Position numbers and translations under genes: made by a program | In this document: positions 3,153-28,091 of the stretch, piece after piece | Position numbering within the stretch: position 1 is the first letter of the stretch | Layout: the number at the start of each line of letters is the position of its first letter | The notes under the pieces: model-generated | The model's database searches: none | Seen by the model: only the letters and a program-made list of their open reading frames with translations | What the model was told of the DNA's origin: nothing | DNA from: a virus | Length of the DNA: 31,451 nt | Reading direction: 5' to 3' (one strand) | IMG/VR virus record: IMGVR_UViG_3300035698_002359 | Span: 1 to 31,451 of that record

Positions 3153-5456
3153 ATGAATCAAATGACAGTTATTAAAGACCTTTATGACCAAGGCTTCGCT
3201 ATTCATTGGATTAAACCACGTTCAAAAGCACCCGTACATTCTAAATGGACGACAGGACCTAGGGCAACGTGGCCCGAATTAAAGAAACAATTTAAGAAAG
3301 GGTACAACGTAGGTGTAAGGCTTGGTGAAGTATCAAGTATCGACTCTTTATATTATCTCGCTGTAGTGGACTGCGATATAAAATCAAAAGATAAAAAACA
3401 CTTAAAACAAATGCACGATAAATTAGAAGAGTTAAGACTAGACCATACCGCGCCTATCGTAGCGTCTGGACGTGGTAACGGGTCTAAACATATATACGTA
3501 CTAACGGAAGAACCACAAAAGCCTTTTCGATTTTCTCAAAGTAAAGAAAAAGTAAAGGTACATATGCCTTCGAGTAAACCAAGCAGGTATGAAAAACATA
3601 ATCTAAAACCCGAAGAGTTAAAGAAAGGTATTCGCTTACGTGCCGCTTGGGAAATTTCTGTCATGGGTAAAGGTCAACAAGTTGTACTCCCGCCTTCTAT
3701 TCATCCCGATAGTGGTAAGCGGTATAAGTGGCAAGTCCCTATTGGTGACATTATAGAAATAAAAAGTTTTAGCGAGTTTGAGGGTGCTAAAACTAATGAA
3801 GAGTTTACCGAGTATGAAGGGGATTTATCAGATTTTATAGACGTTGATATTTCGGTATCTAACCTTAAAAAAGAAGATAAAGACTTAATTATCGAAGGTA
3901 CTGGAAGTTCGGATAGAAGTGCAGAAATGCTTATGATATGTAATAAGATGCTAAGGCATGGTTTTACTAATAAGGAAATTCTAAGTGTTCTTACTAATAA
4001 AGATTACTACCTTGGTGGTGTGGGATACGAACATAAGAAAACACGTAATAGAAAGTTAGCCGCCGAATGGGTTTATAAATACACCTTAGCAAAATCAGAG
4101 CGTGGGGTAGTAGAGGTAATTAACTGTTTTACCGACGAAGTTGTTAATAAAAAACTTTCACCGGAAGCTAAAGAAGAACAATTAAAAGAACTTCGTGAAG
4201 GTATGGACTGGAGAGACGAACTTACACGTATTGGTAATGGTAAAGATGCACCACCTAGAGCCACCATGAAGAACATGATTTTAATACTTGAAAATACTTT
4301 AATGCGTGATGATTTTATAGGGCGTAATCGTTTCACTCTAGAGGACGTGTGGACTGTTAATACTCCATGGGGTAACGCTAAAGGGCAGTCAGTCAGTGAC
4401 AGTGACGTTATTCGTTTAAAACAATGGTTTAGTGAACACTTTAGAGTCGAGCCCGCTAGAGATAAAATAGACGAGATTCTTATATACTTTGCAGAAAAGT
4501 CGGGCTTTCATCCCGTAAAGGCATATCTCGATAAATTAGAATGGGACGGGTTAGAACGTCTTGACGATTGGCTTATCGATTATTTAGGTGCCGAAGGCCC
4601 GCTACCATACTTACAAGCTGTAGGGTCTAAAACCCTTATCGCTATGGTAGCACGAATCTATAGGCCCGGTACGAAGTTCGATCAAGTATTGATCTTAGAG
4701 GGTAAGCAAGGGGTAGGTAAGTCCACTACGGCCCGTATATTAGCGGGTGACGACTGGTTTAGCGATAGTGACTTAATGGTAGGTGACAAAGATAGCGTTG
4801 TTAATATGCAGGGCGTTTGGGTTTATGAGATAGGCGAGTTATCAGCTATGAATCGTTTTCATGTAAACCAATTAAAAGAGTTTATTAGTAGGTCAACGGA
4901 TAAGATACGCCCGCCCTACGGTAAACGCTTGGTGAGTTATCCACGACAGTCAATCTTTATAGGGACTACTAACAATTCAGAGTATCTAAAAGATAAAACA
5001 GGTAACCGTCGTTTCTGGCCTGTAAAGGTAGGGAAGGTCGATTTAGAGTGGCTCGCAGAAGATAGGGACCAATTACTTGCGGAAGCTGTAACACGTTTTC
5101 GTGCGGGTGAAGCCTTATATATAGAAGACTTAACGACTAGAAAATTAGCCGAAACAGAGCAAGGTACACGTGTTGAATATGACGAGTTAGAAAGCATTTT
5201 AGATCACTTTTTTAAAGGCCTAAAACCTGTTACTAATATCTACGATAACAGGTTACAAAGTGTGAACATAAGTAGTAACGGTCCCTTCCGTATCGTAGAT
5301 TTAATAGAAAGTGCTACTGTTTTACAAGGTTTTAAAAATGATAAATCGACTCAAATTCGTATATCAAACGCCCTAAAGACACTAGGTTTTGAACGTAAAA
5401 CACGTCGTTTAGGACCTATTTTAGCTAAAATGTGGTGTAAAAATGAAGAAAACTAG
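3153..5456 (+). CDS. Primase-polymerase fused to VapE-type SF3-like helicase
   Basis: A 767-aa multidomain replication protein. Residues ~10-210 form an archaeo-eukaryotic primase (prim-pol) domain: the metal-binding DxD is VVDCDIK (D73, D75) and the SxH-like motif is SKHIYV (S111, H113), followed by the family signature LPPSIHPDSGKRYKW. Residues ~330-720 are a virulence-associated-protein-E domain: a P-loop EGKQGVGKST near residues 516-525, a Walker B region GVWVYEIGEL near 555-564, and the conserved GTTNNSEYLKDKTGNRRFWP near 604-623. Expected action: primer synthesis and unwinding at the phage origin. The candidate origin lies immediately downstream. The start at 3153 is chosen because AGAGG lies eight bases upstream; a second ATG at codon 4 is possible. 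Confidence 0.92.
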   Translation: MNQMTVIKDLYDQGFAIHWIKPRSKAPVHSKWTTGPRATWPELKKQFKKGYNVGVRLGEVSSIDSLYYLAVVDCDIKSKDKKHLKQMHDKLEELRLDHTAPIVASGRGNGSKHIYVLTEEPQKPFRFSQSKEKVKVHMPSSKPSRYEKHNLKPEELKKGIRLRAAWEISVMGKGQQVVLPPSIHPDSGKRYKWQVPIGDIIEIKSFSEFEGAKTNEEFTEYEGDLSDFIDVDISVSNLKKEDKDLIIEGTGSSDRSAEMLMICNKMLRHGFTNKEILSVLTNKDYYLGGVGYEHKKTRNRKLAAEWVYKYTLAKSERGVVEVINCFTDEVVNKKLSPEAKEEQLKELREGMDWRDELTRIGNGKDAPPRATMKNMILILENTLMRDDFIGRNRFTLEDVWTVNTPWGNAKGQSVSDSDVIRLKQWFSEHFRVEPARDKIDEILIYFAEKSGFHPVKAYLDKLEWDGLERLDDWLIDYLGAEGPLPYLQAVGSKTLIAMVARIYRPGTKFDQVLILEGKQGVGKSTTARILAGDDWFSDSDLMVGDKDSVVNMQGVWVYEIGELSAMNRFHVNQLKEFISRSTDKIRPPYGKRLVSYPRQSIFIGTTNNSEYLKDKTGNRRFWPVKVGKVDLEWLAEDRDQLLAEAVTRFRAGEALYIEDLTTRKLAETEQGTRVEYDELESILDHFFKGLKPVTNIYDNRLQSVNISSNGPFRIVDLIESATVLQGFKNDKSTQIRISNALKTLGFERKTRRLGPILAKMWCKNEEN

Positions 5457-5461
5457 TAAAG

Positions 5462-5695
5462 GTTACCACTTTGTACCACTTTGTTATCACTTTTTACTAC
5501 TAGTGGTAACACCATTTTTGGTAGGTATTACGGTAACTTACTCTATATGTTACCACTGTTACTACTTCTATCTATATATTATTAATTATATTATATTAGT
5601 ATATAGTAGCTATATAGCGTCTGCGCAGACTGTAGAATCCTGCGCGTATATACGGTCCTAGAGTTTTGTTTGGTATAAATGGTAACAGTGGTAAC
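5462..5695. repeat. Candidate replication origin: 9-bp iterons around an AT-rich, palindrome-bearing core
   Basis: The 9-mer GTTACCACT (inverse AGTGGTAAC) recurs. Forward copies are 5462-5470, 5473-5480 (GTACCACT), 5483-5491 (GTTATCACT), 5549-5557 and 5558-5566 (GTTACTACT). Inverted copies are 5502-5510, 5678-5686 (AATGGTAAC) and 5687-5695. The first three are on a 10-11 bp period. GTTACCACTGTTAC (5549-5562) has a perfect inverted copy at 5682-5695, enclosing an AT-rich stretch (about 5567-5618). Three perfect palindromes lie between them: GCTATATAGC (5609-5618), GTCTGCGCAGAC (5619-5630) and CGTATATACG (5645-5654). Iterons plus an AT-rich unwinding region beside a primase-helicase gene are the hallmark of a theta-type origin. 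A multi-site operator is the alternative. Confidence 0.6.
5672..5679 (+). promoter_or_regulatory. Possible extended -10 promoter overlapping iterons
   Basis: TGGTATAAA fits an extended -10 (TGn followed by TATAAA), without a convincing -35 (TACGGT at the right distance is poor). Transcription would begin near 5686, inside the paired inverted iterons, and would serve the 36-aa membrane peptide and the RuvC-like gene. If real, the iteron-binding protein would shut it off by occupying the start site. The assignment is weak. Confidence 0.3.
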
Positions 5696-5715
5696 ATTTT
5701 TAAAGTGGGGATTTT

Positions 5716-5826
5716 ATGAGTTTATTTAAGAAAATTGTTTTAATTATTTTAGACTTACTATTGGTGTTAATTATCTTGGGTGTATCTGTAACGCTCGTGG
5801 GGTTTATGGTAATGGGTTTATGGTAA
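5716..5826 (+). CDS. Small single-span membrane peptide, 36 aa
   Basis: ATG at 5716 is preceded by AAAGTGGGG with suitable spacing, and the frame closes with TAA at 5824-5826. The peptide is MSLFKK followed by an almost uninterrupted hydrophobic helix (IVLIILDLLLVLIILGVSV) ending MVMGLW. The positive N-terminus suggests N-in topology. A 14-bp tandem duplication near its end shifts the frame: reading without the second copy would give 43 residues stopping at 5859, just over the start of the RuvC-like gene. The peptide may therefore be a shortened form. No family was recognised. The ribosome site and position in a 400-bp gap support it as real. Confidence 0.55.
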   Translation: MSLFKKIVLIILDLLLVLIILGVSVTLVGFMVMGLW

Positions 5827-5828
5827 TG
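5801..5828. repeat. 14-bp perfect tandem duplication
   Basis: GGTTTATGGTAATG occurs twice head to tail (5801-5814 and 5815-5828), followed by a partial third copy (GGTTTTG). Because 14 is not a multiple of 3, the duplication changes the reading frame of the small membrane peptide and creates its present stop codon. Such perfect short tandems can expand or contract by replication slippage. Confidence 0.85.
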
Positions 5829-5853
5829 GGTTTTGTAGCTATGTGGGGTCAAG

Positions 5854-6348
5854 GTGTCTAAAGAATTAATTGAAGTCATCGGCGTAGACCCCGGTAACAC
5901 GGGCGCATTAGTTTACTTCAATGGTGATACTATAGATGCTTTAAAGATGCCTTTAAACGAAAAGAAGTTTACTTGCTATGAATCTGTATGGGAGTTTCTT
6001 TTGAAGTATCCTAACGCCCATGTTTTCTTAGAACGTGCCGCAGGCTATGGTCAAGGCGCGTCGGCGGCGTTTACATATGGTAGAGGCTTCTCGGCTTTAG
6101 AGATAGCTATTAGCTTGAGTGACTTATCAGTGACTTACATAGAACCTAGGAAGTGGACGAAGGTTATTCACCAAGGCATTAATAAAGATTTAAAGCCGAA
6201 GGCAAAAAGTGTCATCGCTATAAACCGTCTTTATCCTAAATTGATACAGTTCATTCCTAAAGGCCCTAGAAGCGGTAAACTCGACGAGGGCGTAGTAGAT
6301 GCGCTTCTTATCGCAGGATACGGCTACAACGCATTTAAAGGAATGTAA
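5854..6348 (+). CDS. RuvC-like Holliday junction endonuclease
   Basis: A 164-aa protein starting at GTG. The RNase H-like fold of RuvC is visible: first strand IGVDPGNTGALVYF with catalytic D12, a second acidic position in HVFLERA (E60), and a final helix KLDEGVVDALLIA with D149 (and D144/E145 nearby). Length matches bacterial RuvC and phage homologues. Expected role: cutting four-way junctions and branched replication intermediates before packaging, working with the primase-helicase upstream and the SNF2 helicase on the other strand. The GTG start is preceded by TGGGGTCAAG; no better ATG exists in frame. Confidence 0.85.
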   Translation: MSKELIEVIGVDPGNTGALVYFNGDTIDALKMPLNEKKFTCYESVWEFLLKYPNAHVFLERAAGYGQGASAAFTYGRGFSALEIAISLSDLSVTYIEPRKWTKVIHQGINKDLKPKAKSVIAINRLYPKLIQFIPKGPRSGKLDEGVVDALLIAGYGYNAFKGM

Positions 6349-6357
6349 AAATAACAC

Positions 6358-6386
6358 TTGCTAACGTGTTACAAACGTGTTACACT
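6358..6386 (+). promoter_or_regulatory. Sigma70-like promoter built on an 11-bp tandem repeat
   Basis: TTGCTA (-35, 6358-6363) and TACACT (-10, 6381-6386) are 17 bp apart. The spacer and -10 are made of two perfect head-to-tail copies of AACGTGTTACA (6363-6373, 6374-6384). An upstream TAACAC (6352-6357) forms an inverted match to GTGTTA. It lies in the only non-coding gap before the seven-gene accessory operon. The repeats look like an operator covering the promoter. The nearby RHH and LuxR-type proteins are possible ligands (inference). Confidence 0.6.
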
Positions 6387-6426
6387 AAATAGGTAGAGAA
6401 GTTAATAACTAATAAAGGTGCAAAAA

Positions 6427-6600
6427 ATGAAATACCCTTTCTATAAGAAACATAAAACGCAAAACAGATTTTGGGATTATAAAAGTAAAACGTGGTTAAA
6501 AGTTTTACCTACTAGAAACTGTATCCTTATAAATTATCAGGGTTATAACATTCACCCAAGTCAACAATGTGATACATGGTATGAAAGTAAGGCGGTATAG
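6427..6600 (+). CDS. Hypothetical protein, 57 aa
   Basis: First gene after the tandem-repeat promoter. ATG at 6427 is preferred because AAAGGTG lies seven bases upstream; an in-frame GTG at 6418 overlaps that ribosome site. The small protein is rich in Lys, Tyr and Trp (YPFYKKHK, FWDYKSKTWLKV) with two Cys (Cys at 'RNCIL' and 'QQCDTW') and no membrane segment. Its stop TAG is one base before the ATG of the lipoprotein gene. Not recognised. Confidence 0.65.
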   Translation: MKYPFYKKHKTQNRFWDYKSKTWLKVLPTRNCILINYQGYNIHPSQQCDTWYESKAV

Positions 6601-6601
6601 G

Positions 6602-7105
6602 ATGAATAAACTAATTTTAATACTACTAACCCCACTACTAATTTTTAACATCGCTTGCAGCGATGGTGACGGTCAAGCTTACGCGAGTAGAGAGTCATTA
6701 GAAAGAGTAGACGAAGAGCTACTACCTTACGTCCAAGAAATACTTTTAGATTCTATAACTTATGCGAGTGAACGTCTTAACGTAACTCAATGGGTGGTTT
6801 TAGATAATCTTCGTGATGAGAAAGTACATTCTAAATGTGATAGCGAAACGATTCGTATAGACTATTCAACTTTTATCGACTTTACGACTAACGGTAATGG
6901 TGATAGAGTCGTCGCACTTCTAATGCGTGAGATAGGTCAATGCGTTTCAATGCGCGAAAGGTTTTCTTCGGGTTATAAACCTGATAGCGACCCTAACGAT
7001 GATTTACCGGGTTCAATTATGGACGTGCAAGACCATAGAATAGTTAATGCGATAGAAAGTGATAACAAAGAATACTACTACCGGGAGTTATTTAGAAATG
7101 AGTAG
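6602..7105 (+). CDS. Putative lipoprotein, degenerate metallopeptidase-like fold
   Basis: A 167-aa protein from ATG 6602. The N-terminus (MNKLILILLTPLLIFNIAC) is a hydrophobic signal with Cys19, followed by Ser at +2, which would direct an outer-membrane lipoprotein. The lipobox is slightly atypical (Asn at -3). The body resembles small secreted proteins whose core is HELGHCxxxRxH, then a S-[IM]-M turn and a C-terminal 'YY..ELF'. Here LLMREIGQCVSMRER replaces the zinc-binding and catalytic residues (H to R, H to Q, final H to R), while SIMDV and YYYRELF remain. It is therefore probably an inactive homologue with a binding role at the cell surface. Superinfection exclusion is one guess. The homology rests on pattern recall and needs profile confirmation. 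Confidence 0.6.
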   Translation: MNKLILILLTPLLIFNIACSDGDGQAYASRESLERVDEELLPYVQEILLDSITYASERLNVTQWVVLDNLRDEKVHSKCDSETIRIDYSTFIDFTTNGNGDRVVALLMREIGQCVSMRERFSSGYKPDSDPNDDLPGSIMDVQDHRIVNAIESDNKEYYYRELFRNE

Positions 7106-10295: not shown

Positions 10296-12446
10296 ATGAA
10301 TTTCTATCAGCGTCTTAAATTCGCTTTCGCTTCCAAAGAATCTCAAGCCCGAATCGTTACGAACGTTCATAACGTCGGTAAACCAGTAATGAGTCCTGCT
10401 AATTACGAAATGTTTGCGAGACAAGGTTTTAATAAAAACGCGATTGTTTATACTTCAATTTCTAAAATAACAACGGCTTGCAAAAGTATTAATTGGATTT
10501 TGTACAAAAAGAATAAAGGACGAAGGGCTAACTGGACAGAGTTTGAGTCGCACCCGTTACTAGATTTATGGGATAAACCAAACCCACTAATGACTAGGTC
10601 AAGTTTCATTGAAGCTGTAATCGGTTACTATAAGATAGCAGGTAACAGTTACATCGAAGCGAACGTTATTAAGAAAGGAAGCGTTCAAGAACTTTGGCCC
10701 GTCCGTCCCGATAAGATGAAAGTCATTCCCGGTGCTAAAGGTTACCCGGCTAGATATGAGTTTTCGCATGGTGGTACTTCTAGAGGTTGGGACGTTGACC
10801 AAGTTAATCTTCGTGCTGATTTATTACATAGAAAGACTTTTAACCCTACCGATGACTGGTATGGTATGTCGCCCTTAGAAGCGGCGTTAATTTCTGTCGA
10901 TAGTTACAATGCAGGTCAAAAATGGAATCTTGCTTTACTACAACAATCGGCACGTCCTTCCGGTGTTTTACAAATGAAACAAACGGACGCTAACCCGCAA
11001 GGTATGATTACCGATGAACAACATAAAAGACTAAAAAAGAATTGGAAGGAAACATACGGCGGTTATAAAAATGCAGGTAACCCCGCAATACTTGAAGGTG
11101 GTTTAACTTGGCAAAGCATCGCAATGTCACCAAAGGAAATGGACTTTCTAAAAAGCAAGGACGTGAGTGCGCAGGACGTGGCCCTAATCTACGGCGTACC
11201 CCCCGAAATAATCGGACTAGGGACGAAAACGTTTCAGAATTACAAAGAAGCGAAGGAAGCGTTTTACGAAGAGACGATAATTCCCGACATGGACAGTCTA
11301 AGAAACGACATCAACGAGTGGCTTGCGCCGATCTATGGGGACGACTTATTACTCGATTACGACAAAGATAGTATTGAAGCATTAGTAGAAAAACGCGAAC
11401 GTAAGTACACTTCTCTACAGTCATCTACATTTTTAAACTATAATGAAAAAAGAAGTGCCGCAGGATATGAAGAGATTGACGGTATGGACCTTTGGGAATT
11501 AGGCGGTGTTCTTTACTCTAAAGAAGAGTTTGCAAACATAGGAAGTGTTGACGATGATTCTACTAATGATGATAGCGACGACGATTCTAAATCTACTTTC
11601 TTGGATACTGAATATAAGTCATTCAACTTGGTTAACGCTAACGAAAAACGTAAAGCATGGAAGGCGCAAAATAAACTCCGATTATCCCTTACCAAGAAAT
11701 ACAACAAAGAAGTAAGTAGCGATTTTAAAGAACTAACTAAGAAGCTTTCTAAAACAGGTAAAGACTTAGAACGTGCCGACGAAAAGGTTATCGAGTACGC
11801 ACTAATAAAAGACATTACCGAGTGGTTACCTAAACTTGATAATACTTTAAGTAGTAATACTCGAAACGTTTTAACAGAGTTTGGTAATCGCATACTGACA
11901 GAAGGTAAAGAGCTAGGTATTGGTATCGAGAAGAAATCTAATCTTCGTTTTGATAGTTTCGTCGATCAATATATACAAGCTAATACCGCCGATAAGATAA
12001 GCACCATATCTAATACACTTTCTAAAACTTCTCGTCGCATTGTTAAAGAATGGATTAGTGAAACGATTACTGCTGGTGATACATTGCCCGACCTTTCTAA
12101 AATGTTACAGTCTGAATTTGAAGGGCTTTCTAAAACGAACGCTATGCGAATCGCACGTACCGAAGTTAGTGTCGCTTCTAACAATGGTGCGTTAGAAGCC
12201 GTTAAAGCTTTGAAAGTACCCGAAATGTATAAACAATGGATAAGTGCCCAAGACGATAGGGTACGTGATGATTCAGGTAATGCAGACCATAAACACGTTG
12301 ACGAAAATAACGGCGAGATACCTATAGACGATTCGTTTAAAGTTGACCCCGACATTCTAATGACAGGACCGGGCGATAGTTCGGCACCCGCTAAACAAGT
12401 TATTAATTGTAGATGCGTATTAGTCTTTAAGAACAAAGGAAAATAA
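10296..12446 (+). CDS. Portal protein fused to a MuF-like head morphogenesis domain
   Basis: A 716-aa protein in two parts. Residues ~1-385 are an HK97-type portal: NKNAIVYTSISKI, WDKPNPLMTRSSF, a GMSPLEAAL turn, and GVPPEIIGLG with the following helix. Portals form the dodecameric DNA channel that docks TerL. After a charged linker (Asp/Ser-rich around residues 410-435) and helical region, residues ~590-712 are a phage Mu gpF-like domain: MRIARTEVSVASNNGALEA, WISAQDDRVRD and the closing INCRCVL. MuF proteins are normally separate minor head proteins next to the portal; here they are one chain. AAAAGGCACC precedes the ATG. The fusion is in frame and looks intact. Confidence 0.93.
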   Translation: MNFYQRLKFAFASKESQARIVTNVHNVGKPVMSPANYEMFARQGFNKNAIVYTSISKITTACKSINWILYKKNKGRRANWTEFESHPLLDLWDKPNPLMTRSSFIEAVIGYYKIAGNSYIEANVIKKGSVQELWPVRPDKMKVIPGAKGYPARYEFSHGGTSRGWDVDQVNLRADLLHRKTFNPTDDWYGMSPLEAALISVDSYNAGQKWNLALLQQSARPSGVLQMKQTDANPQGMITDEQHKRLKKNWKETYGGYKNAGNPAILEGGLTWQSIAMSPKEMDFLKSKDVSAQDVALIYGVPPEIIGLGTKTFQNYKEAKEAFYEETIIPDMDSLRNDINEWLAPIYGDDLLLDYDKDSIEALVEKRERKYTSLQSSTFLNYNEKRSAAGYEEIDGMDLWELGGVLYSKEEFANIGSVDDDSTNDDSDDDSKSTFLDTEYKSFNLVNANEKRKAWKAQNKLRLSLTKKYNKEVSSDFKELTKKLSKTGKDLERADEKVIEYALIKDITEWLPKLDNTLSSNTRNVLTEFGNRILTEGKELGIGIEKKSNLRFDSFVDQYIQANTADKISTISNTLSKTSRRIVKEWISETITAGDTLPDLSKMLQSEFEGLSKTNAMRIARTEVSVASNNGALEAVKALKVPEMYKQWISAQDDRVRDDSGNADHKHVDENNGEIPIDDSFKVDPDILMTGPGDSSAPAKQVINCRCVLVFKNKGK

Positions 12447-14594: not shown

Positions 14595-15020
14595 ATGTTA
14601 AGATCAATGAAGGATACAATTAAAGTCACTAACATTCTACCGGGTGCCGCTTTAACAGCTACGGACGCTACTACGAGCGTTGATAATGAACTAGGCGGGT
14701 CGCTTATGTTCTTAGTAAACGCGGGCGCTTTTACGTTTACATCGACTAATAAACTATCACTCACGGTTCAAGATTCGGACGTTGACATAGATGGTTCTTA
14801 CGCTGACTGCGTAGATGCCGATTTATTCGACGCCGAAGATGGTGCTAACGGAATCGCTAAGATCCTAGATTCTACCGACGATCAAGATACGACTCATATC
14901 ATTCATTACCGAGGTAATAAAAGATATGCACGCCTTAACATTGTAGAGGGCGGTACGGTTTCGGCTGTTGTTTCGGCTGTCGCAATTCAAGGTCACTTAA
15001 AAGCTAACCCGGCATCTTAA
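14595..15020 (+). CDS. Putative head (decoration-type) protein
   Basis: A 141-aa protein with a strong ribosome site (AGGAG) before ATG 14595. It is beta-rich and small: MKDTIKVTNILPG, GSLMFLVNAGAFTFTSTNKL, LTVQDSD, then HYRGNKRYARLNIVEGG and a final strand ending GHLKANP. This arrangement is recognisable in proteins encoded just after the major capsid gene of many siphoviruses, usually annotated as head or decoration proteins without a confirmed function. The strong translation signal fits a structural component. An alternative is a neck or minor head protein. Confidence 0.6.
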   Translation: MLRSMKDTIKVTNILPGAALTATDATTSVDNELGGSLMFLVNAGAFTFTSTNKLSLTVQDSDVDIDGSYADCVDADLFDAEDGANGIAKILDSTDDQDTTHIIHYRGNKRYARLNIVEGGTVSAVVSAVAIQGHLKANPAS

Positions 15021-15375: not shown

Positions 15376-15961
15376 TACGACCGACGATGATACGCTTGTT
15401 ACTATTCAACTTAGGGCGGCTACCGAACGCTTAGAAAAGTATTGCGATACGAAGTTTTGTACCCAAACATGGGAAATTTATTTCGATGGTTTCGGGTGCA
15501 AAAGAACAGACGATTGGTGGGATGGTAGTAGAGACGCACCTATCACCATGTTAAATGATTACTCTACAGGTAAATTAGAAATGCCTTTCGGTCCTATGTC
15601 TTCTGTTACAAGTATTAAAACATTCGACGAATCAGATACAGAAGCTATATTCGCAAGTTCAAACTATACACCCGATATGATAGGTCCTAGGGGTTCGATA
15701 CATTTAAAGAGTGGTTCGACGTGGCCTAGTACAGTTCTTAGACCCGTCAATGGTATTCAAGTTACTGCGGTCTTTGGCTTCGGTGCGGGTTACGCGATAG
15801 CCGATGCAGCTACTACAGATAATACAGTTATACCGGACGCAATACAGGAATCAGTAAAACAGTTTGCCGCTTTACTCTTTGAACATAGAGGCGATGAACT
15901 TCCAAAGATTCCCGCAAGTGTAATGATGTTACTCGAGCCATATAGGATGATAAAAGTTTAA
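15293..15961 (+). CDS. Head-tail connector protein (gp6-like)
   Basis: The recognisable domain begins VSLARLKNFLRLDTTDDDTL and continues LRAATERLEKYCDTKF, the helical signature of HK97 gp6-like connectors, with the long beta-rich extension seen in related ~200-aa versions. The C-terminal part (QESVKQFAALLFEHRGDE) returns to helices. Connectors bind under the portal as a ring. The start is uncertain: GTG 15293 has AAAAGG upstream and gives 222 aa; ATG 15242 would give 239 aa but has no ribosome site. Both place the start inside the Lys-rich end of the previous gene. A +1 frameshift fusion is an alternative. Ends TAATG with the next gene. Confidence 0.75.
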   Translation: MIPKSKRSVAPTTVPVSLARLKNFLRLDTTDDDTLVTIQLRAATERLEKYCDTKFCTQTWEIYFDGFGCKRTDDWWDGSRDAPITMLNDYSTGKLEMPFGPMSSVTSIKTFDESDTEAIFASSNYTPDMIGPRGSIHLKSGSTWPSTVLRPVNGIQVTAVFGFGAGYAIADAATTDNTVIPDAIQESVKQFAALLFEHRGDELPKIPASVMMLLEPYRMIKV

Positions 15962-16302
15962 TGAGCAAAATCACGCAAGTTAACATTTCAGAATTAAGAC
16001 ATAGGATAACTTTTAAACAGTTAACCGAAGACAGTGACGGTCAAGGCGGTAAGACGACTTCTTTACAGGACGTTGCGACGGTGTGGGCAAAAATCGAACC
16101 CGTGTCGGCACGTGAAAGACAGTTTTCACAACAAATAGAATACCATAGATCACACAAGGTAACCATTAGATATAGAACTGATATAACAAACGATATGCGT
16201 TTCGTTTATGACGGTAGAACCTTTCAAGTTAAAGGCGTAAGAATACCCGACGAACGTAAAGCATACTTAACAATCGACGCAGAGGAAAATACAGCGACAT
16301 GA
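15961..16302 (+). CDS. Head-closure / head-tail joining protein
   Basis: A 113-aa protein of the phage head-tail adaptor family (SPP1 gp16-like fold). Hallmarks are the early strand ELRHRITFKQ, a loop GQGGKTTSLQDVATVWAKIE, then RQFSQQIEYHRSHKVTIRYR and the closing strand pair FVYDGRTFQVKGVRIPDERK. The family joins connector to tail and closes the DNA exit channel. Position between connector and HK97 gp10-like gene is the canonical one. Its ATG shares a base with the preceding stop, and its end overlaps the next start by 4 bp (ATGA). Confidence 0.88.
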   Translation: MSKITQVNISELRHRITFKQLTEDSDGQGGKTTSLQDVATVWAKIEPVSARERQFSQQIEYHRSHKVTIRYRTDITNDMRFVYDGRTFQVKGVRIPDERKAYLTIDAEENTAT

Positions 16303-16748
16303 GTTTTAGTGCAAGTATCGACGGGCGAAAGCTTTTAGATAAAAAGATAGATAAAATACTTATTAATGCTGAAACGGCTATGATTAAAGCCGTTCGCGAT
16401 TCGGTATTCGCTATTCACGAAAATGCTGTAAAACTTATTCAAGCTAATTCAAGCGGTACTCGAATGTTTCGTTATAGTCCTAAAAGAAAAGTTAAAGTCT
16501 CCGCGCCGGGCAAGGCACCTAACACCGATACAGGTCGGTTAGTTCAATCTATAAAGTTTGACTTTAGTGATAGTGGTTTAAAAGGTGAAGTCGGTACTAA
16601 CTTAAAATATGGTAAGGCTTTAGAGTTTGGGACTAAGAAAATGGAAGCCCGACCTTGGCTTTCTACTGCCGTTAATAAATCTAAAAAAGAAATACCTAAA
16701 GAGTTTAGAAAAGAGTTACTCGCTTCTATTAAAAAGGCGGTTAAGTAA
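16299..16748 (+). CDS. HK97 gp10-like neck / tail-completion protein
   Basis: A 149-aa protein with the HK97 gp10 pattern: a helical N-terminus (KIDKILINAETAMIKAVRD), the loop VSAPGKAPNTDTGRLVQSIK, then VGTNLKYGKALEFGTKKMEA and RPWLSTAVNKSKKEI. The conserved 'APG..P..dTG.L..SI' and 'YA..lEfGT....ARP' motifs make the call firm. It acts at the head-tail interface. Translation is coupled by 4-bp and 1-bp overlaps to its neighbours. GAGG is present ~12 bases before the ATG. Confidence 0.9.
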   Translation: MSFSASIDGRKLLDKKIDKILINAETAMIKAVRDSVFAIHENAVKLIQANSSGTRMFRYSPKRKVKVSAPGKAPNTDTGRLVQSIKFDFSDSGLKGEVGTNLKYGKALEFGTKKMEARPWLSTAVNKSKKEIPKEFRKELLASIKKAVK

Positions 16749-18088
16749 TGCCGCAGATTCGCCACTACATTAATGGGACTAAATTAGATGCGATAGTCTA
16801 CGCCGATGGTGTAAACAAAACACCCGGCAAGGTCGGCGGTACAGGTGCGACAGTATCTACCGATAAACCCGGTTATAACGGTACTACTTCTTTAGACCTT
16901 GCGGGCGGTGGTGCGGGCGCTAATGGGTTAGTATATAATGGTGGTTCTAACATAACTACTACTAGTAAGGACCTAAGCGGTTGGGTTAAAATAAACTTCG
17001 AAAGTTTCTTCGGTACGCAAGTTATACAAAGTATTGGAAGTTTAGGACCTGCACCATTATTTGAAGTATATACAGACAGTACTGCAGCTATTAAAGTTTT
17101 TATGTATAATGACGGCGGTAGTAGAGGTATCAATGGTTATAACTTCGGCGGTAGCCTATTAATAGATACTGACTATTATATCGCATGGACTTGGAATAAT
17201 ACCACTAGGGGTTTTAAAGTTTATCTCAATGGGACACTACTCGGTACTAGCACGTCTACCCGTTTTCTATCTGCTAACTTCACGGGCGACCAGATACAAC
17301 AAATAGGCTACGGGTGTGGTGACGTTTCTCAAAACTCACATTTCTATATCGACGAAGGCGCGATAGCCGATTACATAATAGACCCCACTTCGGGCGGTCT
17401 AAACTTAGACGCTACCGACAGAGTAGACTATGTTACCGTGACACCAACAACGGTAGGCGCTAACGTACCCGACCCTACAGAAGTCTTAGACGGCGTTATA
17501 TACGATAATGGTGTCGATAGCTTTGAGGGTAATGTTACTCTACCGGGTGTGGGTAGTGTCGCGGTAAGTACGGTCTTCGGACCTAATGATTCCCTAACGG
17601 GTACTCTTTTCGTACCGGGCGCTATCATTGGTAACGGCGACTGGGCACCACTAGAAGTACAAAAAGAAATATATTTATTACTTTCAAATGACGACGCACT
17701 TATAGATTTCCTAGGTGGTGACTCTACAGTCGATACCACTACCGATAGGGTTTATGATTACGTACCTGATAACTCTGACTACCCTTATATCACTATGCAG
17801 GTTCTACCTTGGGTAGATAGAAGTAATATAACTTTTCAAGGTATGGAATGTGAATTTCAATTAAATGTTTTCTATAAACCAGACGATACGGTTAACCTTC
17901 AAAGGGGTAATAAGCCCGTACAATTAATACAACAACGCATTGACCAATTATTAAATAACACTGACTTATGTATAGATGGGTGGAACTCTTTGCAGTTACG
18001 TCGTACTTACATTGATATCGAAACGGATACAGATAACGTTACTAAACATGGAATACAGAGATTTAACTTAAAAATAGGAGAAAAGTAA
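16748..18088 (+). CDS. Tail terminator (DUF3168-like) with N-terminal lectin-like domain
   Basis: A 446-aa fusion. Residues ~30-215 look like a concanavalin A/LamG-type jelly roll: SLDLAGGGAGANG, LSGWVKINFESFFG, YYIAWTWNNTTRGFKVYLNG and the strand HFYIDEGAIADYI. A linker with PDPTEVLDGVIYDNGVDSF follows. Residues ~298-446 match the small tail-terminator family (DUF3168): PLEVQKEIYLLLSNDDALI, YPYITMQVLP, CEFQLNVFY and IQRFNLKIGEK. The family normally has ~120-150 aa and lies exactly here, between gp10-like and tail-tube genes. So a sugar-binding-type domain appears to decorate the neck. The reading frame is unbroken; AAGGCGG precedes the ATG. Confidence 0.75.
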   Translation: MPQIRHYINGTKLDAIVYADGVNKTPGKVGGTGATVSTDKPGYNGTTSLDLAGGGAGANGLVYNGGSNITTTSKDLSGWVKINFESFFGTQVIQSIGSLGPAPLFEVYTDSTAAIKVFMYNDGGSRGINGYNFGGSLLIDTDYYIAWTWNNTTRGFKVYLNGTLLGTSTSTRFLSANFTGDQIQQIGYGCGDVSQNSHFYIDEGAIADYIIDPTSGGLNLDATDRVDYVTVTPTTVGANVPDPTEVLDGVIYDNGVDSFEGNVTLPGVGSVAVSTVFGPNDSLTGTLFVPGAIIGNGDWAPLEVQKEIYLLLSNDDALIDFLGGDSTVDTTTDRVYDYVPDNSDYPYITMQVLPWVDRSNITFQGMECEFQLNVFYKPDDTVNLQRGNKPVQLIQQRIDQLLNNTDLCIDGWNSLQLRRTYIDIETDTDNVTKHGIQRFNLKIGEK

Positions 18089-18089
18089 A

Positions 18090-18758
18090 ATGGGTTCTTG
18101 TAATACAGAAACAAACGAGAGAAGCGGTAAGGATTTACTATTAAAAATATGCGAAGTTGACGACGTAACAATCGTAAACGCGACAAACGCTAATAACATG
18201 GTAGCGGCAGCCCACGGGTTACAGGTCAATGATATGGTACGTATCAACGCTACCGAACTCGGCACTATGGACGACCTTGTAGTCGATCAACTTTATTTTG
18301 TTAAAACAGTAGTCAATGCTGATACGTTCACCATTTCAGCAACACCGGGCGGGACGGCTATTAGTTTTGACGAAGACTTAACCGATGCGGAGTTTGAATA
18401 CTTCAAAGGCATTGGTGGTTTAAGATCACACGGATTAGCTTTTGCGAGTGAATCTATTGAAACTACGAACTACGGCTCTAATCAATGGAAGACTTTAAAA
18501 GATGGTGCAGGTCTTAAAAGTGCATCGGTATCGGGTGACGGGGTTTATAATAACTCTACTAACTTCCAAGCAATGGAAGCGAGTGCTTTCGCTAACTCGA
18601 TGGTATGCTTGGCTTTTGTTGACGCTAATGCAGGACGTGTTTATCACGGTTGTTTTAAAATCGCTTCTCTAGAATCGAGTGCGGAACATAATGGTGAAGC
18701 TACGTTCACGGCTTCATTCGAGTCAAGTGGTGCTATCACTATCTATCAGGCGGCGTAA
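18090..18758 (+). CDS. Major tail tube protein with inserted domain
   Basis: The tail-tube family pattern is clear: GKDLLLKI at residues 13-20, then GIGGLRSHGLAFASESIETT, NQWKTLKDGAGLKSASVSG, and the last strands FKIASLESSAEHNGEATFT. In ordinary TP901-1/HK97-like tube proteins GKDLLLKI is followed within ~15 residues by GLRS. Here ~85 residues intervene, with AAHGLQVNDMVRI, LYFVKTVVNADTFTISATPG and GTAISF, a small beta module known from other phage tail proteins. It would project from the tube. AGGAG precedes ATG 18090. The protein stacks as hexameric rings around the tape measure. Confidence 0.88.
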   Translation: MGSCNTETNERSGKDLLLKICEVDDVTIVNATNANNMVAAAHGLQVNDMVRINATELGTMDDLVVDQLYFVKTVVNADTFTISATPGGTAISFDEDLTDAEFEYFKGIGGLRSHGLAFASESIETTNYGSNQWKTLKDGAGLKSASVSGDGVYNNSTNFQAMEASAFANSMVCLAFVDANAGRVYHGCFKIASLESSAEHNGEATFTASFESSGAITIYQAA

Positions 18759-23509: not shown

Positions 23510-24187
23510 ATGGGTGACGATACTCTACTTACTAAAGCTGATAGAGATATAGTAAGTTCTAACGACTTTAATCAGTATAAACGCGCCTTAGTAGGGGACC
23601 AAGTACCGCGTAACTCTAGTGGTATCGCTACGGCTAACGCTGCCGAGTTTGGTACAGAAACTAAACCTTTTAAAAAAGTAAAAGTTACTGTAGGTCATCT
23701 ATTCGTAGGAATGATTATGCATTACCATTCCTATAACGTGGGTCTAGATAACCCCGGTCAAGGTTGGTTTCAATGTAGTGGAAGTATCATAAACGAAGCT
23801 AACTACAATGGTACGCATGGTGCAGGTTCTTGGGATACATACATAGGTTCTTCACCTTTAGACGGTTTATACGCACCATCTGTTTTAAGTAATACTTATC
23901 TTCAAAGTTTAATAGCCGCGCAAACTTTACCCGACGGTTCGGGTTTAATAGGTACTTCCGGTAGTAATACCTTAACACCACCTAATCATAACCATGTCGG
24001 CGGTTCACATACTCATACAGTTTCTAATACTCCCGGTACTTACGGTTTTGCTGCATCTACTATTATTAGTACGCTAAATTCTAGTACCGAAGCGGGCGGC
24101 GTAACTACTACAGGTTTCGGCGCGAGTACCGCCGTTGATGGTAAACCCGAATCAATAGAGGTACAGTATTGGATTAGGGTTATATAA
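23510..24187 (+). CDS. Tail collar-domain fibre protein, copy 1 of 3
   Basis: A 225-aa protein. Residues ~1-65 are a shared N-terminal module (NDFNQYKRALVGDQVPRNSS, PFKKVKVTVGHLFVG), residues ~80-125 a tail-collar core (GWFQCSGSIINEANY, HGAGSWDTYI, LDGLYAP), then a HNHVGGSHTH histidine cluster near residue 163 and a closing strand PESIEVQYWIRVI. Collar domains occur at the ends of short tail fibres such as T4 gp12 and bind receptors as trimers. AGGGAAA lies upstream. Two paralogues follow with one-base overlaps. Copy 1 has the most divergent middle (YLQSLIAAQTLPDGSGLIGT). Confidence 0.8.
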   Translation: MGDDTLLTKADRDIVSSNDFNQYKRALVGDQVPRNSSGIATANAAEFGTETKPFKKVKVTVGHLFVGMIMHYHSYNVGLDNPGQGWFQCSGSIINEANYNGTHGAGSWDTYIGSSPLDGLYAPSVLSNTYLQSLIAAQTLPDGSGLIGTSGSNTLTPPNHNHVGGSHTHTVSNTPGTYGFAASTIISTLNSSTEAGGVTTTGFGASTAVDGKPESIEVQYWIRVI

Positions 24188-24858
24188 TGGGCAGTAACGA
24201 TATAGCGACGGCAAAAGACGGCGAGAAAATAAAACATACCGACCCTAATCAGTATAATGAGGCTTTAAGTGGGGACATAGTACCACGTAACACCGGGGGA
24301 AATCCGAGTGCTAACGCGGGAAGTATCGGCACGTCTACACTTCCTTTTAAAAAAGCTAACATAACCGTAGGGTACTTAAAAGTTAAAACGATTATGCCTT
24401 TTCACGATTATAACGGCTTACTAACTCCAGGCCAAGGTTGGTTTAAATGTGATGGAAGTATAATAAACGAAACAAATTATGATTCTTTACATGGCGCAGG
24501 TTCTTGGGACGAGTACATAGTTAGTTCGGATTTAGACGGTTTATATTCACCTAACTTTGTAGATAAAATACCATCGGGTGTTTCATCTACTACAGAAGAT
24601 GGTACTACGGCTATTAGTCCCGTAGGTAATGCTAACCACGAAGTAACTATAGATAACCATACCCATACAGGACCTAACCACACCCACGTCCTTAATGGGA
24701 CTTTTAACGACGAAGTATTAGGCGGTGGTACGGCGGGTTTACAAAGTATAAGTTCTATAGGTGCAACGGGTACGGGTAATACTTCGGCGAGTGGGTCCCA
24801 TACTGTAAACGTAAAACCACAATCTATAGAGTTTCAGTTTTGGATTAGGATTATATAA
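24187..24858 (+). CDS. Tail collar-domain fibre protein, copy 2 of 3
   Basis: A 223-aa paralogue of the flanking genes. The N-terminal module is DPNQYNEALSGDIVPRNTGG and PFKKANITVGYLKV. The collar core is GQGWFKCDGSIINETNYD with HGAGSWDEYI and LDGLYSPNFV. The metal-type cluster is DNHTHTGPNHTH near residue 158-169, and the end is PQSIEFQFWIRII. The spacing of HxH pairs recalls the iron-binding HxH motifs in the T4 gp37 tip, where each pair in a trimer supplies six ligands. Its ATG shares one base with the previous stop; AGGG is upstream. It may form a homotrimer or combine with its paralogues. Confidence 0.8.
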   Translation: MGSNDIATAKDGEKIKHTDPNQYNEALSGDIVPRNTGGNPSANAGSIGTSTLPFKKANITVGYLKVKTIMPFHDYNGLLTPGQGWFKCDGSIINETNYDSLHGAGSWDEYIVSSDLDGLYSPNFVDKIPSGVSSTTEDGTTAISPVGNANHEVTIDNHTHTGPNHTHVLNGTFNDEVLGGGTAGLQSISSIGATGTGNTSASGSHTVNVKPQSIEFQFWIRII

Positions 24859-25550
24859 TGAGTGATAACACTTTAGTCGATAAAGCAGACACGAATATAA
24901 TTGAAGAGTCCGACCCTAATCAATACAAAACCGCTTTAAGTGAAGGTCAAGTACCGCGTAACTCTAGTGGTGTTGCTACGACCGATGGTGCCGACGCCGG
25001 AACTGACTTAGTACCCTTTAAAAAAATGCATATAACTAATGGTCACCTTTTTACCGGGATGGTAACACCTGCATTTATCTATAATGGTGTTATAGACGTA
25101 GCCCAAGGTTGGTTTAAATGTAACGGTACTATAATTAATAAAGCTAATTATGACGACCAACACGGCGTAGGTTCTTGGGACGAATATATAGTTACATCAC
25201 CATTAGAAGGAAGGTACGCGCCTACTATGGGTCAAGTCGGCGCTTCGGGCGTCGGTAAAATGTTAGCGGGCGCGAGTGACACGACCCAAGACGGTACTAC
25301 TGAAATGACGACAGTCGGTAATAGTAATAACCTATATTCTTTACCTTCCCATACCCATACAGGACCTAACCATAGTCACTCAATTAGCAAGACCCAAGCT
25401 TCAATCTATGGTGGTGGTGCACTAATTAGAATACAAAACGTAGCAACGTCAACGGGAAGTGCGAACCCTACCACTAGTTCAAGCGGCGGTGGTAACCTAA
25501 GTATAGCGCCTAAAACTATGGACGTTTTATTTTACATAAGGATAGTATAA
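24858..25550 (+). CDS. Tail collar-domain fibre protein, copy 3 of 3
   Basis: A 230-aa paralogue: DPNQYKTALSEGQVPRNSSG and PFKKMHITNGHLFTG in the N-terminal module, AQGWFKCNGTIINKANYD with HGVGSWDEYI and LEGRYAPTM in the core, LPSHTHTGPNHSHSI as the histidine cluster near residue 170, and a final strand MDVLFYIRIV. Its C-terminal segment between cluster and end (Gly/Ser/Thr-rich, IQNVATSTGSANPTTSSSGG) differs most from the others, which would alter the exposed tip. Starts by a one-base overlap with copy 2, with AGGA upstream. Confidence 0.8.
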   Translation: MSDNTLVDKADTNIIEESDPNQYKTALSEGQVPRNSSGVATTDGADAGTDLVPFKKMHITNGHLFTGMVTPAFIYNGVIDVAQGWFKCNGTIINKANYDDQHGVGSWDEYIVTSPLEGRYAPTMGQVGASGVGKMLAGASDTTQDGTTEMTTVGNSNNLYSLPSHTHTGPNHSHSISKTQASIYGGGALIRIQNVATSTGSANPTTSSSGGGNLSIAPKTMDVLFYIRIV

Positions 25551-26041
25551 TGACAAGTATATGGGATTTATTAATACCAACACGAAGTAATGCCGATGTA
25601 ATAGCAGTAGACGCCAGTTGGTTTAATGTTTTTAAAACTGCGCTGAAAACTGCTTTTCCTAATCTGGTAATCTCAACGGCTACGATTACACTAACTAATA
25701 ACCAATCGACGTACGAAGACATTACAGACCTTTTGCTTGATAAAGATACCTATACTTATTACGTTATTCGGTATCGAGCGCAACGGTCCGATGATACCCC
25801 AGACGTAAGGGACGAGGTAGGGACTATAATAGCACGTTACATTAGCGGTGCTTGGACTTATGACAGGTCTATAGAGTATGGTAACGCCTTAGGCGATGGT
25901 GCCGAAGGTGGTGACTACGGGACTAACTACCTGCACGTAGATTCGTCAAGCGGTCAAGGTCAATATAAAACGAGTAATATGACGGGCGGCACTTATGCTA
26001 GTTCTTTTGAATATAAAATAATTGAGGTATGGAATGCGTAA
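25550..26041 (+). CDS. Small tail protein sharing the collar N-terminal module
   Basis: A 163-aa protein. Its first ~40 residues (SNADVIAVDASWFNVFKTAL) line up in spacing with the N-terminal module of the three collar proteins ('aD..II...d.NqYkTAL'), suggesting the same attachment site on the tail. The remainder is a beta domain: LVISTATITLTNNQ, YTYYVIRYRAQRSDD, VGTIIARYISGAWTYDRSI and FEYKIIEVWNA. It could cap or replace a collar protein in the tip, or be a minor receptor-binding subunit. AAGGATAG precedes ATG. Its end overlaps the large fibre gene by 8 bp. Confidence 0.6.
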   Translation: MTSIWDLLIPTRSNADVIAVDASWFNVFKTALKTAFPNLVISTATITLTNNQSTYEDITDLLLDKDTYTYYVIRYRAQRSDDTPDVRDEVGTIIARYISGAWTYDRSIEYGNALGDGAEGGDYGTNYLHVDSSSGQGQYKTSNMTGGTYASSFEYKIIEVWNA

Positions 26042-28091
26042 CTTTTTAAAAATATTTACAGCACTACTAATTAGTTCAGTCGTTGTCGTTGCCTGCGCAC
26101 GTACCGAACTTAAAGACTTTTTTGTTAAAGGAATAGTCGGGGTACTTAATGGTAACCCTTTAAGATTCTATGAAACTACAGCTAACGGTACAAACTATAC
26201 AGGTTTCAAGGCACCAAATTCTTTGACAGGAAATACTACTTTTACTTTACCAGACGGCGACGGTAATACGGGTCAAACTGTTATAACCGACGGAAGCGGT
26301 AACCTTGCGTGGGGTGCAAGTGCGGGCGGCGGTTCTAAAACTTATTTTGATAGTGAATCGGCTAACGTCGAAGCAAGTGTCGGGTCTTGGTTAACCGACG
26401 ATGGTGCGGGCGGTACGGCTTCTTATTTAACTTTATCAGTAGAAGCTTCGGCGCATCTTGCCAGTGAAGGTTCTTTACAAGTTGATAAATCAGCTAATGA
26501 CGCTTCGAGTGAATTTATAAAACTTAACACTCAAACCATCGACTTAACTGACAGGGGTAAAGCCTTATATGGTTCTTTTTCTTATGAAGCATTAACGGGT
26601 TATGACTCAAGTGATTTAGTTATAGAACTTTATGACGTTACAAACGCTGCCGTATTATATTCAGGTCCTACAGAAGATTTAGAGTTACTAGATTCTAAAG
26701 GTCAATTTAATTTTGTTGTTTATACAGAAGACGACACCGAGGTAGTTCAATTACGATTAAAAATTAATAGTACAAACGCAACGGCATGGTCTTTATATTT
26801 TGATGAGTTTAAATTAGGCCCAAGTACCACTATACAGTCTACTATTACTACAGGTTGGCAAGACTATACACCTAATTTCCTTACATCGGGCGGCGGTAGT
26901 GTTACCTTGGACGGTACTTCGTCCGTACCTCTATATGGTAAGTGGCGACGTACAGGTGACACCATAGAGATACATTACGGATTTAGAAACGGTACAGGTG
27001 GTGGTGCATCGGGTAATGCGGGTAGCATAAAAATAAGCTTCCCTACAGGTGTCGAGTTTGAGAGTAGTGGGTCTTCTGAATCCGATTTAATCTTAGGACC
27101 CTATCTAGGTCCTGCACGTTCTTCGACAAGTGCTACTAAACTAGGTTCATATCAAGTCTACAGTGGTTTTATTACACCCGGCGATACCGGAGCAATTACG
27201 GTAGCGAGTTTAGCCGCAGGTTTCTCTTTACATGGCGAGGCTACTTTTAAAGTTACAGGTTGGGACGTAGGAGCGCAAGTAAATAGTAATGAACTAAGTT
27301 TACAGACTATAACAGTTATGGGAAGGTCTAACGGCGGTCAAGTTTTAACAGGTAATACTACCCCCATTAGTTACGTTGAAGAACTCGACACCCATAACGC
27401 TTGGGACGGTGACGAATTTGTAGCACCTAAAACAGGAATCTATGAACTAAAAGGCAGTGTTAAAACCACGACAAGTGTTAAACCTATTTACTATTCATAT
27501 ATAAACAATAGTATTGATAAGATGGTCGGGTATAACCCTAGCAATGGTACATTGATGAGTATTACGTGGACAGGTAAACTAAATAAAGGTGACGAACTAG
27601 AAATAAGAAGCGATACGGGGTCTACACTTTCCGCATCTAATACACTACATTGGTTAACTATTTCTAATCGCCCAGACTACGCGGTTCTTGGTGTTGTTAA
27701 TAACAACGAATACTTAGAAGAAAAAATAACGACTCTTTACACCCACCCCCATGCCGCAGATACATGGGGAGATTTAGACACCATTGATTTAACTCCGGGT
27801 GAGTGGGATATTTATTTAACAGTTGCTTATTATTCAAATGGGGCTACGACTTCTACAGGTGTTTACATGGGAATAAGTACCGCATCGGGGTCTTCTTTTC
27901 CTAGCACGGCTAATCCCGATAACGTAGTTTCAACAGTTAAGTCCAATACTACCGGGACCTACTCTACACTTAATTTAATGTATAGGGTTAACGTATCAGC
28001 GGAAGACACTTACTATCTAAAAAGTTATAGCGCGGGTTCAATTTCTAATTTACAAGTAGCACATACAATAAAAGCACGAAGAGTTAAGTAA
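26034..28091 (+). CDS. Large fibre/adhesin-like protein with lipoprotein signal
   Basis: A 685-aa protein from ATG 26034 (GAGG six bases upstream; overlapping the previous stop by 8 bp). The first 21 residues (MRNFLKIFTALLISSVVVVA then Cys21) form a good lipoprotein signal with Ala at +2. Next comes a repeat-like fibre module, PLRFYETTANGTNYTGFKAP to GSGNLAWGASAGGG (~43-105), common in phage fibres. Residues ~110-265 resemble a carbohydrate-binding jelly roll, followed by GWQDYTPNFLTSGGG and a beta section. Two C-terminal C1q/TNF-like jelly rolls follow (PISYVEELDTHNAWDGDEF; LTPGEWDIYLTVAYYSNG). It is last in the tail module, as a receptor-binding fibre would be, but the signal suggests export and lipidation. 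Confidence 0.7.
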   Translation: MRNFLKIFTALLISSVVVVACARTELKDFFVKGIVGVLNGNPLRFYETTANGTNYTGFKAPNSLTGNTTFTLPDGDGNTGQTVITDGSGNLAWGASAGGGSKTYFDSESANVEASVGSWLTDDGAGGTASYLTLSVEASAHLASEGSLQVDKSANDASSEFIKLNTQTIDLTDRGKALYGSFSYEALTGYDSSDLVIELYDVTNAAVLYSGPTEDLELLDSKGQFNFVVYTEDDTEVVQLRLKINSTNATAWSLYFDEFKLGPSTTIQSTITTGWQDYTPNFLTSGGGSVTLDGTSSVPLYGKWRRTGDTIEIHYGFRNGTGGGASGNAGSIKISFPTGVEFESSGSSESDLILGPYLGPARSSTSATKLGSYQVYSGFITPGDTGAITVASLAAGFSLHGEATFKVTGWDVGAQVNSNELSLQTITVMGRSNGGQVLTGNTTPISYVEELDTHNAWDGDEFVAPKTGIYELKGSVKTTTSVKPIYYSYINNSIDKMVGYNPSNGTLMSITWTGKLNKGDELEIRSDTGSTLSASNTLHWLTISNRPDYAVLGVVNNNEYLEEKITTLYTHPHAADTWGDLDTIDLTPGEWDIYLTVAYYSNGATTSTGVYMGISTASGSSFPSTANPDNVVSTVKSNTTGTYSTLNLMYRVNVSAEDTYYLKSYSAGSISNLQVAHTIKARRVK

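Follow-up and report, generated by a model that had tools for sequence, protein, structure and literature searches.

Neck decoration with carbohydrate-binding modules (CBMs) is already known, in the form of separate neck passage proteins. In the 936 group of lactococcal phages, a neck passage structure (NPS) is present in 73 of 113, and one neck CBM bound its host (PMC6669499). The NPS protein is a separate polypeptide of 500-900 aa: about 180 conserved residues at its N-terminus make up the collar, a helical fibre comes next, and the CBM is at the C-terminus (PMC6669499). The tail terminators that occupy the same region of the virion have been described structurally. The RcGTA terminator is a hexamer between the stopper and the tail tube, and its N-terminal helix contacts the insertion loop of the stopper (PMC7296036); the R4C terminator is also a hexamer, with its main helices at the periphery (PMC10276861). 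A preliminary description of the locus reported here had regarded the neck as a place not normally used for host contact, which was too strong a statement, considering that neck modules of the 936 phages bind hosts (PMC6669499).

The window analysed here, 31,451 bases from an uncultured phage, spans an entire IMG/VR virus record. It contains a siphophage structural operon encoding terminase, portal, protease, major capsid protein, adaptor, stopper, a gp10-like protein, the fusion gene under study, tail tube and tape measure. The features of the neck region are as follows.

15961..16302, + strand: head closure / stopper protein (Phage_HCP; phrog_25, 3e-30; PF05521, 5e-27)
16299..16748, + strand: upstream neighbour, HK97-gp10-like tail completion / Neck1 protein (phrog_5, 3.4e-19; PF04883, 1.4e-5)
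16748..18088, + strand: fusion gene, 446 aa, with a LamG-like domain, a repeat linker and a tail terminator (ORF, codon usage)
16976..17365, + strand: Laminin_G_3 / ConA-like jelly-roll domain, residues 77-206, the start of which may be earlier (PF13385, low-confidence model)
17471..17614, + strand: linker with two degenerate GVxY...TGT repeats, residues about 242-289 (alignment with contigs L085 and L087)
17636..18088, + strand: tail terminator domain, residues 297-446, PF11367 / phrog_176 (profile, alignment and fold)
18090..18758, + strand: downstream neighbour, major tail (tube) protein (PF06199, 1.7e-21)

The ATG of the fusion gene, which is placed between the HK97-gp10-like gene and the tail-tube gene, overlaps the stop codon of the former (TAATG). 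The order stopper, gp10-like protein, terminator, tail tube and tape measure is found in the window, and a matching order occurs in contigs L003, L084, L085 and L099. The coordinates, length and domain order of this 446-aa open reading frame agree with the preliminary description, which had proposed a DUF3168-type tail terminator preceded by about 300 extra residues; we counted 296. Its central claim, that a ConA/LamG-like domain and a linker are fused to the terminator, is backed by profile, synteny, fold and independent relatives.

Several other features of these records were observed. In the window, the portal protein (10296-12446) is continuous with a head-morphogenesis domain (phrog_2468) at its C-terminal end, and the product of 14595-15020 belongs to the phrog_5707 family. 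The same family matches the C-terminal part of a 423-aa protein in L003, the nearest capsid relative (5337-6608), which has about 290 extra N-terminal residues, including a stretch that resembles the major-tail-protein family phrog_10909. In L095 (1090-1755), the stopper and the gp10-like protein are joined in one 221-aa frame when compared with the near-identical L093, by either a deletion or an assembly join. Farther downstream in the window, three tandem paralogous genes (23510-25550; 223-230 aa, 41-46% identical pairwise) with weak tail-collar/fibre matches are likely a triplicated tail-fibre-like gene. A 689-aa fibre-like protein (26022-28091), for which no Pfam or PHROG match was found, may start at an ATG farther downstream and then opens with an apparent lipoprotein-type signal (ALLISSVVVVACA), which is odd for a virion protein.

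Residues 297-446 of the fusion protein are an ordinary tail terminator by profile, gene position and fold. First, PF11367 (Tail_completion_gp17) matched residues 317-440 (E 1.3e-10, 41.9 bits, above the curated cut-off of 24.5; 45.2 bits in the whole-record scan), and phrog_176 ('tail terminator') matched residues 303-443 (E 3.3e-13). Second, residue 297 is aligned to Met1 of free-standing syntenic homologues, with 53% identity to that of L003 and 46% to that of L006. Third, in an AlphaFold2 model of this part, block pLDDT values were mostly 85-97, and Foldseek matched the model to the RcGTA terminator (6tba_4A; TM 0.86 over the target, E 9.5e-6), and further to the monocin cap, T5 p142 and lambda gpU chains, that is, to terminators and related neck proteins. 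The fusion protein, at 446 aa, departs from the single-domain size of ~120-150 residues that characterizes terminators, and this length is due to an added domain and not to the loss of a core terminator feature. A profile scan of the whole record found no second PF11367 gene and thus no second terminator.

A jelly-roll domain had been expected between residues 30 and 215. When residues 73-209 were scanned alone against all of Pfam-A, PF13385 (Laminin_G_3) matched residues 77-206 (E 1.1e-5), with a score of 26.0-26.1 bits that is significant and slightly below the curated cut-off of 27.6; in a PF13385 scan of the whole record, this was the sole match (E 2.7e-7). The match was not listed in the Pfam hmmscan of the whole fusion protein, probably because of the HMMER prefilters. 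Whole-protein searches of PDB sequences, plasmids and annotated phages returned no match to the N-terminal part, an exact-peptide search of viral and genome collections found nothing for it, and no significant match emerged when the three fused N-termini described below were compared, profile against profile, with two LamG protein sets. Separate structure prediction, which the preliminary description had suggested, recovered the terminator with confidence, whereas the lectin-like part was modelled as nearly all antiparallel beta at low confidence (mean pLDDT 39, pTM 0.40), from a thin alignment that contained LamG-like rows from other phages. The 23 PDB matches to this low-confidence model at E<=0.001 were ConA-like folds or multidomain proteins with one; pentraxins, neurexin LNS domains, CBM40 and CBM66 are among the matches listed, and the named viral structure matches were mostly 'Concanavalin A-like' or 'LamG' proteins. 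Considering their low TM-scores (0.2-0.4), these matches support a ConA-like fold class without proving it.

The GVxY...TGT repeats of the linker number two in the window, two in L087 and more in L085. A strict scan for this motif turned up 37 further viral contigs, where it lies mostly towards the C-terminus of virion-like proteins, and several of the phage proteins with the motif carry an F5/8 type C domain, which is of a sugar-binding type.

Could the terminator also be produced without its extension? The 296 residues precede the terminator domain in one reading frame of 447 open codons, and the codon-usage score of the N-terminal part is positive in this frame only. There is no in-frame start near the seam at residue 297, methionine occurring only at positions 1, 119, 350 and 366, and the GTG codons at 231 and 268 have no evident Shine-Dalgarno sequence. 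Internal initiation giving a free terminator was ruled out, because no start lies around residue 297. Since the record also lacks a second PF11367 gene, all six subunits of the ring should carry the extension.

When relatives of the terminator domain were sought, two further IMG/VR contigs were found to encode a LamG-like stretch, repeats and a terminator in one protein, in each case directly before the tail-tube gene: L085 (1368-2897, 509 aa) and L087 (1-1104, 367 aa, cut at the contig start). The N-terminus of L085 matched PF13385 weakly (18.7 bits in one scan and 20.5 bits in another), and PF13385 gave no match to L087, so that the LamG assignment of L087 derives from its similarity to L085 (E 6e-14). 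The N-terminal part of the window is more distant (E 1e-5 to L085); its identity to L085 is 25% over 180 aligned N-terminal residues and 54% in the terminator domain. At 2895-2897 of L085, an in-frame TAA lies inside an otherwise conserved terminator C-terminus, which reflects either a sequencing error or a true truncation.

Within the close terminator group, three of some 15 distinct members are fused, and close relatives with 53-55% identical terminators are without the lectin-like extension. PF11367 lies in an open frame of 123-183 aa in 30 records whose terminators or capsids are related, with one exception, a weak second match of 207. The terminator ORFs of L004, L016, L017, L039 and L081 are longer, but were rejected as mechanical extensions, which for the most part run into the gp10-like gene in a different frame. 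A tree built from 19 terminator domains shows the three fused members scattered rather than in one group: the window pairs with the unfused L084 (87/91) and L087 pairs with the unfused L099 (95/98), and the well-supported branches force at least two changes of fusion state. This scatter suggests that the module has been gained or lost repeatedly, as would be expected for an optional decoration rather than a core part. A plausible source of the fused module is provided by the free LamG genes in the capsid-to-neck interval of relatives (L004:6618-7310 and L026:7874-8602). Another site of lectin-like domains in these phages is a repetitive fibre-like protein encoded just upstream of the protease and capsid genes (L015 5859-7625 and L017 5913-7676), with a LamG/SO2946-like domain at its C-terminus.

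How might such a protein function? We consider it fairly probable that the fusion caps the tail normally and, in addition, serves as an auxiliary adhesin by surrounding the neck with up to six ConA/LamG-like domains. The C-terminal domain would form the usual hexameric ring between the stopper and the tail tube, and assembly would thereby place six such domains outside the neck, each tethered by roughly 65-90 linker residues. By binding weakly and multivalently to polymers such as surface glycans and exopolysaccharide, they would lengthen the residence time near the host, in addition to the action of the tail-tip receptor-binding proteins. The number of up to six derives from the known hexameric terminator ring together with the lack of a free terminator gene in the record. 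We infer the hexamer and the outward N-terminus of the fusion by analogy with known terminator structures, in that the contact of the RcGTA N-terminal helix with the stopper and the peripheral main helices of R4C would allow the extension to exit outward; because the RcGTA N-terminus is near the stopper, the extension might instead pack on the neck and not project. We likewise infer sugar binding and a benefit for adsorption from the domain type only. LamG and CBM folds bind many polysaccharides, and LamG folds can also bind proteins or play structural roles.

A broader and more tentative reading, to which we give slightly less than an even chance, is that the tail terminator is an undescribed dock on which lectin domains that bind the host or a matrix have been placed repeatedly. 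If this is true, LamG modules would come and go on the terminator ring in lineages of these uncultured siphophages, as other lineages gain and lose decorations on Dit or the tail tube, and the neck would have an adhesion ring of its own although no separate neck protein is involved.

The main rival to the adhesin reading is a structural role, which we judge rather unlikely, in which the domain would stabilize the neck without binding sugar, either by packing on the stopper, the adaptor or the capsid vertex or by anchoring side fibres or whiskers. ConA-like and Ig-like domains do serve structurally in phages; moreover, the Ig-like attachment domain of the R4C adaptor contacts the capsid (PMC10276861), and the N-terminal helix of the RcGTA terminator adjoins the stopper (PMC7296036). 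However, because the close relatives with 53-55% identical terminators are without the domain, it is not needed for assembly, and the divergence between the window and L085, which is far greater in the N-terminal part than in the terminator, agrees better with a surface under external selection than with an interface for packing.

Still less probable, in our view, is that the domain acts not on the host cell but on phage-encoded or host-released polymers at release or dispersal, or on environmental polysaccharide; it might, for example, help to avoid re-adsorption to debris, or bind mucus or algal exudate. The range of polysaccharides bound by LamG and CBM folds would accommodate such a role. 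Two reports in which Ig-like domains on phage surfaces bind mucin (PMC6867891, PMC6848219) point in the same direction, but nothing in this evidence is specific to the present phage. Finally, an artefact or incidental read-through, whether a chimeric assembly or a separate and functionless upstream gene that has lost its stop codon, is very improbable: the window is a metagenomic record and the frame of the fused L085 meets a TAA 17 codons ahead of the following stop, but this reading appears largely refuted by the relatives, since three independently diverged contigs share the order LamG, GVxY/TGT repeats and terminator at the same gene position, which rules out a chimera or other assembly error, and the N-terminal codon usage is coding throughout.

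Under the adhesin reading, this fusion allows the idea of modular adhesins on the proximal tail ring to be tested, and the locus also calls for caution in annotation, because surface domains may be hidden in long terminator proteins. The open-access literature yielded no account of a terminator that itself bears a lectin domain. The NPS of the lactococcal 936 and P335 phages resembles the arrangement in its up to six neck-borne modules of a sugar-binding type, which are reported for the NPS and proposed here. In contrast to the separate NPS protein, the module here precedes the terminator in one polypeptide, in the order LamG, linker, terminator, and the fusion protein matched no NPS family in Pfam, PHROGs or NCBIfam. 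Single-domain terminators of the gp17/DUF3168 kind (PF11367, phrog_176; SPP1 gp17, RcGTA g8 and, by fold, lambda gpU) match residues 297-446 in family, fold and gene position, but a 296-residue N-terminal LamG domain and linker have been added here. The free LamG proteins of L004 and L026 noted above have Laminin_G_3 in the same stretch of the structural operon, but as separate, unfused genes. Evolved Dit and CBM-extended major tail proteins (TpeX) are likewise core tail-ring proteins that bear a carbohydrate-binding domain in some relatives only, but in those cases the distal ring or the tube is decorated, whereas here it is the proximal terminator ring. The unusual feature appears to be the use of the terminator itself as the anchor for the module, which in at least three divergent and scattered phages sits on a core assembly protein that is usually regarded as one small domain.
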